Below, piece by piece: positions 1 to 17,639 of a stretch of DNA of 64,000 bases. Under the pieces are notes generated by a model. It ran no database searches. It was not told where the DNA came from and saw only the letters and a list, made by a program, of their open reading frames with translations. Source of the stretch: Pectobacterium polonicum (GTDB taxonomy: Bacteria; Pseudomonadota; Gammaproteobacteria; Enterobacterales; Enterobacteriaceae); NCBI RefSeq assembly GCF_005497185.1, contig NZ_RJTN01000004.1:186001-250000 (forward strand). Direction: 5' to 3'. Numbering within the stretch: the stretch's first letter is position 1; each line of letters starts with the position of its first letter. The translations under genes and the position numbers were made by a program.

Positions 1-696
1 TACGACGGCCGTGGGCAATGGCGCTTGCGTGACGGCGAACAGCAAACGCTGCCTGCTGATTGCTACGGCGAGTGCATCGTTGAACAAGGGATTAATTTTT
101 CTGGCGAAGTCTCATTGATTGGCGCCCGTAATGTACACGGCAAATGCGTGTTCTATCCGCTAACGCATAATCTGCATCAGGATGGCATTCTGCGCACCAG
201 CGTGGCTTTCCCTCAGCCCGACCCGCAGTTGCAACAGCAGGCTGAGCAGATGCTGTCCGCGATTATGAATGCGCTAGGCTATGTTGGCGTGATGGCGATG
301 GAATGCTTTATTGTCGGCGACCACCTGCTCATTAACGAACTGGCACCACGCGTACACAATAGCGGACACTGGACGCAAAATGGCGCATCGATCGGCCAGT
401 TTGAGCTCCACCTGCGCGCCATTCTGGATCTGCCGCTGCCAGTACCGGTCGTCGAAACCCCTTCAGTGATGGTCAATTTGATCGGAACCGATGTGAATAT
501 CGACTGGCTGGCGCTGCCGCTGGTGCATCTGCACTGGTATGAGAAAGAGGTTCGCCCTGGCCGCAAAGTAGGACACCTCAATCTACCGTCGTCGGACACC
601 GCACAATTGCAGCACACACTGCAATCGCTGGCGCCTCTCTTACCAGAGGAATACCACAGCGGCCTGGCGTGGGCAGAAGAAAAACTCACAGCCTGA
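1..696 (+). CDS. purK: N5-carboxyaminoimidazole ribonucleotide synthase, 3' part
   Basis: The reading frame is open from base 1 (YDGRGQWRLR...), so this is the C-terminal 231 residues of an ATP-grasp enzyme of about 355 residues; the N-terminus lies outside the window. PurK converts AIR, bicarbonate and ATP to N5-CAIR in purine synthesis, with PurE acting next. Visible ATP-grasp features are GYDGRG-like glycine-rich sequence, the metal-binding segment around ECFI...LINELAPRVHNSGH, and the C-terminal domain ending LAWAEEKLTA. Recognition is by strong resemblance to E. coli PurK. A purE gene would be expected just upstream but is not visible. Confidence 0.95.
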   Translation, partial: YDGRGQWRLRDGEQQTLPADCYGECIVEQGINFSGEVSLIGARNVHGKCVFYPLTHNLHQDGILRTSVAFPQPDPQLQQQAEQMLSAIMNALGYVGVMAMECFIVGDHLLINELAPRVHNSGHWTQNGASIGQFELHLRAILDLPLPVPVVETPSVMVNLIGTDVNIDWLALPLVHLHWYEKEVRPGRKVGHLNLPSSDTAQLQHTLQSLAPLLPEEYHSGLAWAEEKLTA

Positions 697-15724: not shown

Positions 15725-15748
15725 TTCCTGAACGATGCCACATACTCG

Positions 15749-15774
15749 CGCCCCATCTGGGGCGTTTTTTATTT
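15749..15774 (+). terminator. Intrinsic terminator of the YjfB-family gene
   Basis: CGCCCC and GGGGCG pair around a 4-base loop, followed by TTTTTTATTT. It isolates the flagellar-type transcript from the hip operon downstream. Confidence 0.85.
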
Positions 15775-15801
15775 GTACTATTTCTTCTATAACAAACATG
15801 C

Positions 15802-15839
15802 CACCTTAGTTTGAGCAATATATTGCTCAAACTAAGGTG
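15802..15839. promoter_or_regulatory. hip operator O1, 38-bp perfect palindrome
   Basis: A perfect 38-bp palindrome. Its 20-bp core TTGAGCAATATATTGCTCAA (15811-15830) is repeated exactly at O3. The centre is at 15820.5, 41 bp from O2. It is a probable binding site for the HTH protein encoded by the second gene of the operon. Confidence 0.8.
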
Positions 15840-15852
15840 AATTTCTCAAAAA

Positions 15853-15870
15853 TGAGTAAAATATTGCTCA
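15853..15870. promoter_or_regulatory. hip operator O2, degenerate copy
   Basis: TGAGTAAAATATTGCTCA matches the 18-bp core of O1 and O3 with two mismatches in the left half. The centre is at 15861.5, exactly 41 bp from both O1 and O3. It overlaps a candidate -35 (TTGCTC, 15864-15869), whose 18-bp-spaced -10 is CATAAT (15888-15893). Confidence 0.7.
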
Positions 15871-15891
15871 AAAAAAAGTAAACATGCCATA

Positions 15892-15913
15892 ATTGAGCAA
15901 TATATTGCTCAAT
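15892..15913. promoter_or_regulatory. hip operator O3, 22-bp perfect palindrome
   Basis: It contains the same 20-bp core as O1 (15893-15912), centred at 15902.5. It lies 12 bp before the hipA ATG and covers the expected transcription start, so occupation should block initiation. Confidence 0.8.
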
Positions 15914-15924
15914 ATGGATCAGTG

Positions 15925-17256
15925 ATGCCTACCATACAAATTTTCCATAATCATCAGTGGTATGATGCTGCCGAGCTAGACATTCCCACTCCTTTAGCGG
16001 GACAGAATGGGTTATCCTGCCTTGGTTATGACTTTGATTATGCCGCCAGTTGGTTAGGTAAAAATGACCATCGCAGTTGTAGTATCAATTTGCCCGTAGA
16101 AATGATGGAAACCTATCGTTCTAAGCCTTGGTTCACTTTTTTGGATGACATTATCCCTTCTGGGGCAAGTCGGCGCTATTGGGTCAATAAATTAGAAATA
16201 GGTCATTTACCCGCTAATGAGCAAGATTATGTCCTGTTGGTTCATGGAACCATTGCCCCTATTGGCAATATACGTATCAAAGAATCACTCCCTTCTTCAC
16301 TAAGTACCCAACAACTACAGAAAATACGTTTCAGTGTGCAAGACGTCGCCGATCGCAATAGTGACTTTATCGAGTACGCACAGCAGCGTGGCGCTGCCGG
16401 AGGTGGGGCAACCGGAGCTGGAGGAGAAGCCCCCAAATTATTACTCCGTTGTTCAGATAACGATGAAATTTGGATAGATCCTTTTCAGGACGATCTCTCT
16501 ACTCAGGACATGCACTATCTGGTGAAATTTCCCAGAGGGCCACGCAGCCCAGTTGATTGCGATATTTTGCGCGCAGAATATTATTTTTATCATGAGCTCA
16601 CATTACTGGGGATGGAGACGATCAACCTCGAAGGTATGCGATTAATTGAAGGGGAGCATTATCCTTCCTTGTGGCTACCTCGTTTTGATGTCGACTACAT
16701 AGACGGGAGAAAAACACTACATGGAATGGAGTCTATCTATTCTCTGCTGAAAAAACCGGCGGGAAGCTACCTTAATCATTTCACTGTTATTCAAAGGATC
16801 ATTGACACGATCGCTCCTCCTACTGGCAATCATGCGCCGCAACGTCGTGAATTAGTTATTGAAATGGTCAAGCGCGACATGCTGAATATCATTTTTGGCA
16901 ATTCAGATAACCACGGACGTAACACGTCGCTCATTAAGCGCCCGCAAGGAATATGGCTTGCTCCTATTTATGATTTTGCCCCTATGAAAGCTGACCCTGA
17001 AGGCATAGCAAGAACCACACAGTGGGGCTCACCTTACGAAGAGGGCGGGAGAATCGATTGGTTCGCTATTGCTAACGCGCTCTCTTCTTTCATTGATCCT
17101 GAAGATTTAATTCATGAATTAAGCACGACCGCACGTCAGCTCATCGGCCTTAAATCTCGTCTTATCGAACGCGGCGTTCCACAGCGCATTATCGCTATGC
17201 CAGTCATGGCGTTTGATTACATTGATGAAAAACTCGCAACATGGCAATTATTATGA
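15925..17256 (+). CDS. hipA: HipA-family serine/threonine kinase toxin
   Basis: A 443-residue HipA-like kinase, normal full length. E. coli HipA phosphorylates glutamyl-tRNA synthetase; the target here is unknown. Visible parts are a Gly-rich loop (GAAGGGATGAGGEAPK, about 151-167), an ATP-binding lysine region HYLVKFPRG, the catalytic loop FGNSDNHGRNTSL and the metal-binding YDFAPM. All key residues appear intact. The ATG at 15925 follows an in-frame GTG at 15922. Unlike E. coli, the toxin gene precedes the antitoxin gene and overlaps it. AT-richer codon use than ppk/ppx suggests acquisition. Confidence 0.9.
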   Translation: MPTIQIFHNHQWYDAAELDIPTPLAGQNGLSCLGYDFDYAASWLGKNDHRSCSINLPVEMMETYRSKPWFTFLDDIIPSGASRRYWVNKLEIGHLPANEQDYVLLVHGTIAPIGNIRIKESLPSSLSTQQLQKIRFSVQDVADRNSDFIEYAQQRGAAGGGATGAGGEAPKLLLRCSDNDEIWIDPFQDDLSTQDMHYLVKFPRGPRSPVDCDILRAEYYFYHELTLLGMETINLEGMRLIEGEHYPSLWLPRFDVDYIDGRKTLHGMESIYSLLKKPAGSYLNHFTVIQRIIDTIAPPTGNHAPQRRELVIEMVKRDMLNIIFGNSDNHGRNTSLIKRPQGIWLAPIYDFAPMKADPEGIARTTQWGSPYEEGGRIDWFAIANALSSFIDPEDLIHELSTTARQLIGLKSRLIERGVPQRIIAMPVMAFDYIDEKLATWQLL

Positions 17257-17570
17257 AAAACCTGTCTTCTTCTGAACGTGATGCGCTACTCGCCCATTTA
17301 CTCACAGAGTTTTTCAATGAGCGGCTCTCTATAGGTGGACTACTTCACAAATTGAGAAAGGACGTTTTCGGTATGTCACAGGAGCAGTACGCCACATTGG
17401 TAGAAGTGAGCCGCCGTACTTTATCTGATATTGAAAAAGATCGCGGTAGCCAATCCATCATGCTCTTAAATCGAGTATTCAGACCATTAGGTTTAAAAGT
17501 CGGCTTGCTCCCGCGTAGCACTCACTTAATGTATGATCTGCTGGAAAAAGGCAACCATAGCAAAAACTAA
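17253..17570 (+). CDS. hipB: HipB-like antitoxin and repressor
   Basis: A 105-residue protein with an XRE HTH at about residues 30-80 (GMSQEQYATLVEVSRRTLSDIEKDRGSQS) and a short C-terminal tail. The ATG at 17253 overlaps the hipA stop as ATGA; an in-frame ATG at 17241 would add MAII. HipB-type proteins bind and neutralise the HipA kinase and repress the operon through palindromic operators; the three palindromes upstream of hipA fit. Because it is the second gene, antitoxin synthesis depends on translation through hipA unless an internal promoter exists. Confidence 0.87.
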   Translation: MKNLSSSERDALLAHLLTEFFNERLSIGGLLHKLRKDVFGMSQEQYATLVEVSRRTLSDIEKDRGSQSIMLLNRVFRPLGLKVGLLPRSTHLMYDLLEKGNHSKN

Positions 17571-17639
17571 AATCATTATAAAAATAAATACTTACTATGC
17601 TAAAACCAAATCTGCCCTCACCTTTTTCACTGCGGCAGA

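Follow-up and report, generated by a model that had tools for sequence, protein, structure and literature searches.

Why should three similar palindromes in front of a single operon lie at one and the same distance from each other, and what would hold them there? This question is raised by a stretch of 64,000 nucleotides from Pectobacterium polonicum (contig NZ_RJTN01000004.1, positions 186,001 to 250,000; the whole stretch is henceforth referred to as the window), in which the following dyads, none of them assigned to a strand, precede a hipA-hipB gene pair:

15802 to 15839, no strand: O1, a 38-bp perfect palindrome with its core dyad at 15811-15830 (TTGAGCAATATATTGCTCAA) and its centre at 15820.5
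15852 to 15871, no strand: O2, an imperfect dyad (ATGAGTAAAATATTGCTCAA) with its centre at 15861.5
15892 to 15913, no strand: O3, a 22-bp perfect palindrome with its core at 15893-15912 and its centre at 15902.5

The initial annotation had described these dyads from the sequence of the window, and we were able to reproduce its coordinates, namely the three centres with steps of 41 and 41 bp between them; measured from start to start, the 20-mers of O1, O2 and O3 are likewise 41 and 41 bp apart. The two arms of O1 (15802-15820 and 15821-15839) are 100% complementary and O3 is symmetrical throughout 15892-15913, so both are the perfect palindromes that had been claimed. The two mismatches ascribed to O2 hold for its 18-bp core, whereas the 20-mer, in which 7 of 10 pairs are symmetrical, has a third at the outermost pair. 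The operator consensus in the window is TTGAGCA-N6-TGCTCAA. With up to three mismatches allowed, the 20-mer was found three times in the window and in none of 100 shuffles, and the array of three dyads is thus real and far exceeds chance. At the same threshold, the 4.8-Mb genome contained one extra copy (C1:354928, two mismatches); it sits in a coding sequence that reads like a FecR-type gene and is probably a chance match rather than a true operator, and with just this one further copy a mobile-repeat origin of the operators was also rejected. The 18-bp operator core additionally occurs at one place in each of four viral contigs (L206-L209). O1 is longer in both Pectobacterium modules (38 bp in the window and 44 bp in Pectobacterium fontis, locus L015) than in nearly all relatives, and between these two modules three positions of its arms have changed on both sides together, with the symmetry kept. 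Such co-change might have arisen through templated repair of the palindrome, or the arms might serve a second function.

The genes downstream of the array are arranged as follows:

15925 to 17256, plus strand: hipA (start at ATG 15925 or GTG 15922), encoding a HipA-like Ser/Thr kinase, the presumed toxin
17241 to 17570, plus strand: hipB (start at ATG 17241, with an inner ATG at 17253 possible), encoding a helix-turn-helix protein, the presumed antitoxin and repressor
15729 to 17597, no strand: the approximate extent of the hipAB module, which is absent here in seven other genomes of the genus that we compared

The gene order is reversed, with hipA first and hipB second, and the two genes overlap by 16 bases. 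HipA (443 residues) scored above the curated cut-offs of PF07804, the C-terminal HipA domain (74.4 bits, cut-off 30.5) and, narrowly, of PF13657, the N-terminal one (22.7 bits, cut-off 22.5), and the first 18 PDB matches of its structural model (pLDDT 89.3) were all HipA chains, from Shewanella and E. coli, with TM scores by query length of 0.63-0.69 at 14-16% identity; a PDB sequence search with HipA at an E-value of 0.01 gave no match. The blocks GGATGAGGEAPK, NSDNHGRN and YDFAPMK of HipA, which we take to be the kinase loop motifs, loop by loop, show little or no variation over 67 sequences. The helix-turn-helix proteins matched by the model of HipB (109 residues) include Legionella, Shewanella and E. 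coli HipB (best Foldseek E-value 0.009); in HipB of the window, helices are predicted at residues 10-25 and 94-106, on either side of the helix-turn-helix stretch at 31-83. The matches of the two models include chains of 4pu3, 4yg7, 4yg1 and 5k98, which are operator complexes by title. The scores for the Y4mF antitoxin family (TIGR03070; 36.6 bits, cut-off 71.65) and for YjjJ (HipH; NF007297; 33.8 bits, cut-off 401) were below the curated cut-offs. At all 87 loci the best hipB match starts no more than 12 bp upstream and 186 bp downstream of where the hipA match ends, and a hipA gene followed by a helix-turn-helix gene is annotated at 17 of 18 plasmid loci, the remaining one being without annotation at that place. 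We presume, from sequence and predicted fold, that the pair is a toxin-antitoxin module of reversed order. Within the genus hipA was present in two of 25 genomes, that of the window included, and in the seven other genomes compared the flanks are present at this site with the module missing; the hipAB module is patchy in the genus and was probably acquired. The nearest named relative found was Pectobacterium fontis (HipA 93%). In one genome (G153) a relative of hipA is split over two separate open frames (L012 and L013) and has probably decayed.

We next considered whether the spacing of the operators is a property of the window or of its relatives as a group. To this end, 86 upstream regions (that of the window, those of 79 of 80 named loci and six more) were searched for three similar dyads with both distances left free between 18 and 65 bp; L014, which looks like the P. 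fontis locus, and L085, which has no upstream DNA, were not counted and L012 and L013 were not scored. The steps were 41/41 in 53 loci, 41/42 in 16, 42/41 in four (42/41 being also the steps of P. fontis) and 42/42 in four; more rarely they were 41/40 (one locus), 40/41 (one locus) or other (seven loci). Both steps thus fell at 40-42 bp in 79 of the 86 loci, and 83 of the 86 beat all ten of their dinucleotide shuffles. A second scan, blind to spacing, relied on a motif derived from O3 alone and with the tested locus left out, the O3s being taken from arrays at 40-42 bp. It found exactly three sites in 74 of the 86 upstream regions, and the distances between adjacent sites were 41 (126 cases), 42 (30), 40 (two) or other (five), so that 158 of 163 lay at 40-42 bp; on 430 shuffled sequences, which preserve base composition only, it gave one adjacent pair in total. 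Two loci have four-site arrays, with steps of 41/41/41 (L047) and 42/41/42 (L082). The regular array of Hip autorepressor operators proposed in the initial annotation thus has comparative support from loci well beyond the window, and conservation of the spacing, on which that proposal had been made to depend, is borne out. The distance of exactly 41 bp is correct for the window, but across loci it is 41 or 42 and rarely 40.

The 79 arrays with both steps at 40-42 bp (78 of them distinct, as those of L006 and L035 are identical) carry 28 genus and 14 family labels, of which three genera and one family are placeholders; 74 are from Gammaproteobacteria and 40 from Halomonadaceae. Across them operator identity is 0.66, compared with about 36% for the spacers (0.355 and 0.359 vs 0.299 and 0.290 expected from composition). 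In contrast to the steps, the distance from O3 to the start of hipA wanders: its best 3-bp window (20-22) takes only 38 of the 79 arrays, and its standard deviation is 12.5, compared with 0.33 and 0.46 for the two steps, values that are bounded by the preselection of arrays at 40-42 bp. On a tree of 66 arrays at least eight and at least seven one-bp changes of the two steps were needed; these arrays were preselected for 40-42 bp, and the tree demonstrates only that the step varies by a base. Compared with the sequence, the pitch appears better conserved and, judged by these alignments, looks like the product of a constraint beyond inheritance alone.

Seven loci depart from 40-42 bp in at least one step (L007, L009, L010, L076, L077, L081 and L089). 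L009, L010 and L089 were not above their shuffles, L010 and L076 had 41/41 and 41/42, respectively, as their runner-up spacing, and L077, L081 and L089 have two motif sites each, the pair in L089 being 52 bp apart. L007 has apparently four sites upstream of hipA, at 41, 37 and 41 bp, with an operator of the ATGAAACCTATAGGTAACGT type. The predicted recognition helix of HipB reads SRR nearly clade-wide and SRK in L007-L011 and L089, in which the main motif finds just 0-2 sites. Helix type and operator type thus appear loosely linked; the link is loose because HipB of L082 also has SRK, yet its sites are still matched by the main motif.

Since O2 and O3 lie close to where a hip promoter would be expected, we considered whether promoter geometry could account for the layout. 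The relevant features are:

15885 to 15893, plus strand: probable extended -10 element, TGC CATAAT
15864 to 15869, plus strand: weak -35-like element, TTGCTC, in the right half of O2, with 3 of 6 consensus bases and not specially conserved
15748 to 15765, plus strand: terminator-like hairpin after a yjfB-like gene, which it separates from the array

The A and T of the putative -10 occur at the equivalent place in 56 of 79 arrays for O3, compared with 12 for O2 and five for O1, and the extended TG is at this place in 20 of 79. The putative -10 and the O3 20-mer share one T, the last of the former and the first of the latter, and transcription is expected to start inside O3, as deduced from the predicted -10; the annotated overlap of O3 with the start point stands on this basis. 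Several similar dyads thus cover the predicted promoter of the hip operon itself. The overlap of O2 with a -35 is weakly supported: the TTGCTC hexamer, 18 bp from the -10, is poor, and TTG is rarer there (19 of 79 arrays) than at the equivalent place in O1 (36 of 79). A consensus promoter scan gave one match of 9/12 (15879-15906), below the 2.2 expected from shuffles.

We propose that HipB represses its own operon and that neighbouring HipB-HipA units touch at a fixed reach across O1 to O3, a reading in which we have reasonable though far from complete confidence. HipB dimers, probably loaded with HipA, would bind O1, O2 and O3; O3 would cover the edge of the -10 and the start point, with O2 just upstream of the -10, so that the promoter would be shut at O3. 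Units bound on adjacent sites would touch, most likely via HipA, and thereby hold the pitch of 41-42 bp; touching units would fill the sites cooperatively, and the complex would extend along the promoter as a regular chain. HipB as the binder is suggested by its place, its helix-turn-helix fold and the loose match between its helix and the operator. In the E. coli complex, HipA flanks HipB, and by analogy with this layout, and from its size, HipA would make the contact. A fixed reach suggests that neighbouring units are in contact, and we infer that this contact sets the pitch, with repression as the outcome; the cooperative wrapping or bridging by HipB and HipA suggested in the initial annotation is an interpretation of the same kind. 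Against the contact model, 7 of the 86 near loci are off-pitch and, among the further modules described below, 10 of 27 are without signal and two are otherwise spaced.

The operators could instead be bound independently by HipB, with the spacing inherited or set by the promoter and with no contact between units. O2 to O3 spans the likely promoter, whose geometry could fix that step, and the near relatives form one clade, in which the layout could be inherited; in addition, the accessible part of a study on Legionella raises the possibility that HipB fills its operators stepwise (PMC10653801). Yet the step from O1 to O2, which has no -10 in it, is conserved like that from O2 to O3, and TTG is not conserved at the supposed -35. 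The spacers have drifted to near composition-level identity and the distance from O3 to the start has wandered, and although one-bp changes of the steps did occur (at least eight and at least seven times), all but 5 of the 163 distances in the spacing-blind scan stay within 40-42 bp. Independent binding is, on this evidence, unlikely, and it is further opposed by the recurrence of the pitch with unrelated operator sequences.

This recurrence was seen among 27 further modules, some close and some remote, namely 18 plasmid loci picked for diversity from hit tables, with their own upstream DNA unseen beforehand, and nine of 20 loci of another set (five repeats and six fragments were left out). 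A signal above all 20 shuffles was obtained in 17 of the 27, at 40-44 bp in 15 and elsewhere in two, and none in ten; with each locus tested twice against 20 shuffles, about two or three of these are expected by chance, and the signals of L217, L222 and L237 were narrow. Two of the 15 (L229 and L230) duplicate arrays already counted (L054 and L021). Several of these modules have unrelated operators, among them TTGCAT..TTGCAA, with four sites at 42/42/42 (L238), GGTAG..CTACC at 41/42 (L240), CGGCAA..TTGCCG at 42 (L213), ACAA..TTGT at 42 (L214, Marinobacter salarius) and CCCTTATAGGGG at 42 (L223). Three loci scored apart from the 27 gave 42/42 (L097), a pair at 43 (L099) and 56/64 with 42/41 as runner-up (L098).

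To determine if an even pitch, and placement on one face of the helix, extend to other Hip systems, we surveyed 97 loci obtained by general HipA_C searches, with first genes assigned by a simple rule and z computed from eight shuffles per locus, so that single rows are unsure. There were 40 strong triples, 28 of them even and 12 uneven, and no strong triple in the other 57 loci. The even steps were 27/27 in 11 loci, 28/28 in five, 28/27 in one, 30/29 in one and 49-51 in ten. Two further layouts were noticed: even steps of 49-50 bp with operators resembling TTTCCCGA-TCGGGAAA in one Hip group (for example L112, L124 and L126), and a 40/46-bp layout recurring in three genomes (L184, L196 and, weakly, L118). 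A HipA tree was built from 22 loci of the clade of the window, hand-picked and all with 41-42 arrays, and from those 38 of the 97 survey loci that were clearly labelled and had a protein of sufficient length. The 41-42 group came out as a single clade (SH-aLRT 100). On the tree, 10 changes of pitch label were required vs a shuffled mean of 31.8; as oddities, L152 carries the label 41-42 although it lies outside this clade, and the label 31 needs three changes.

At 10.5 bp per turn, 27-28 bp correspond to 2.57-2.67 turns and 49-51 bp to 4.67-4.86. The turn fraction is 0.57-0.86 for steps of 27-28, 39, 49-51 and, in Legionella, 71 bp, while 31 and 41-42 bp are near whole turns. The annotated placement of all three operators on one face, about four turns apart, hence fits the clade of the window but is not a general rule, as arrays at 27-28 and 49-51 bp exist. 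An account by face alone was rejected, since 31 or 52 bp would serve equally well, and 31 is absent and 52 found once among the 163 distances; the 27-28 and 49-51 bp of other Hip clades also speak against it. Judging from the arrays compared here, fixed reach and not one-face placement is the general rule across Hip clades.

A fixed reach could also be set by HipB alone, via dimer-dimer contact or DNA bending, with HipA as a passenger. The predicted helices on both sides of the helix-turn-helix stretch of HipB would suit such a contact. The gap of about 21 bp between 20-bp sites is, however, far for a protein of 109 residues, HipA is the larger part of the complex, and the pitch tracks HipA clades, though the tree test did not separate HipB from HipA; we regard this explanation as improbable. 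That the palindromes are RNA or DNA hairpins (terminators or cruciforms) rather than operators is hardly credible: O1 is perfect over 38 bp and scored terminator-like on the minus strand, and its 44-bp counterpart in P. fontis has co-changed at three arm positions on both sides, yet over the 79 arrays dyad symmetry around O1 fades past about 10 bp on each side and long arms are rare (L015, the window and partly L078), O2 of the window is imperfect, a start inside O3, as predicted from the -10, would place O1 and O2 outside the hip transcript, and a fixed-pitch layout of three sites is not terminator-like.

Returning to contact between neighbouring HipB-HipA units, a broader form of this proposal is that a clade-specific contact of HipA or HipB fixes the operator pitch, outliving the turnover of operator sequences, and that arrays change by whole units; we put this forward tentatively, at a little short of an even chance. 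If it is true, each Hip clade would have its own pitch (27-28, 41-44, 49-51 bp and so on), arrays would grow and shrink like filaments, and contact of the toxin within the chain would make repression depend on how much inactive toxin is present. Where spacers and, further out, operators have changed, a distance that holds to within about a base would be a clean sign of protein-protein contact. Higher-order toxin-antitoxin complexes on DNA with the toxin as a structural part would bear on toxin release and persistence, the pitch offers a cheap and testable forecast of which insertions break repression, and promoter geometry would provide a way of sorting Hip systems.

In a literature search that did not extend to the main E. 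coli structure paper, we found no operator array of the hipAB group, no pitch surviving operator change and no clade-typical pitch, and the search returned no experiments on the Hip group of the window. The accessible parts of a review (PMC4803016) give no operator spacing, and those of a Microcystis toxin-antitoxin paper (PMC7935541) are irrelevant to it.

One of the closest known systems is E. coli K-12 hipBA, the operator motif of which is TATCC-N8-GGATA. It resembles the module described here in having a helix-turn-helix antitoxin of a HipA kinase and several dyads upstream of the operon, and differs in that hipB comes first and the operator sequence is another; a layout of this type, with TATCC-N8-GGATA operators and hipB first, was not found in the window. 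Its four sites are unevenly spaced, at 28/39/28 bp as counted (our scan gave 39/28 and 28/39), so that some Hip systems do without an even pitch. Solved Hip complexes include, by title, HipB with O1-O2 (4yg1), HipA-HipB with O2-O3 (5k98) and an autorepression promoter complex (4yg7). The accessible part of the Legionella paper cites E. coli HipB as cooperative and contrasts this with the possible intermediate occupancy of Legionella HipB (PMC10653801).

The HipBST system of Legionella pneumophila resembles the array of the window in layout: in the portion of the paper available, it has three evenly spaced operators, the spacing of which is retained by almost every species studied there, and HipB binds the operators in gel shifts to which HipT adds a further shift (PMC10653801). 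As described there, it differs in its gaps of 53 bp between 18-nt sites (71 bp from centre to centre, as summed here), its tripartite hipBST organization and its operator sequence, and was reported within Legionella (PMC10653801). Gene order is shared with the hipAB and hipEB modules described in 2021 by Gerdes et al. (PMC8262856), which likewise have the kinase gene first and the helix-turn-helix gene second; according to the accessible text, this order is found throughout clade IX and in part of each of clades VI and VII, and Table 1 has no experimentally analysed module for these clades (PMC8262856). The word "operator" occurs at three places in that text, none of them on operator spacing (PMC8262856). 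Overall, as far as the accessible parts of these two papers go, evenly spaced Hip operators are known in print from Legionella (PMC10653801) and the hipAB gene order from the survey of Gerdes et al. (PMC8262856).
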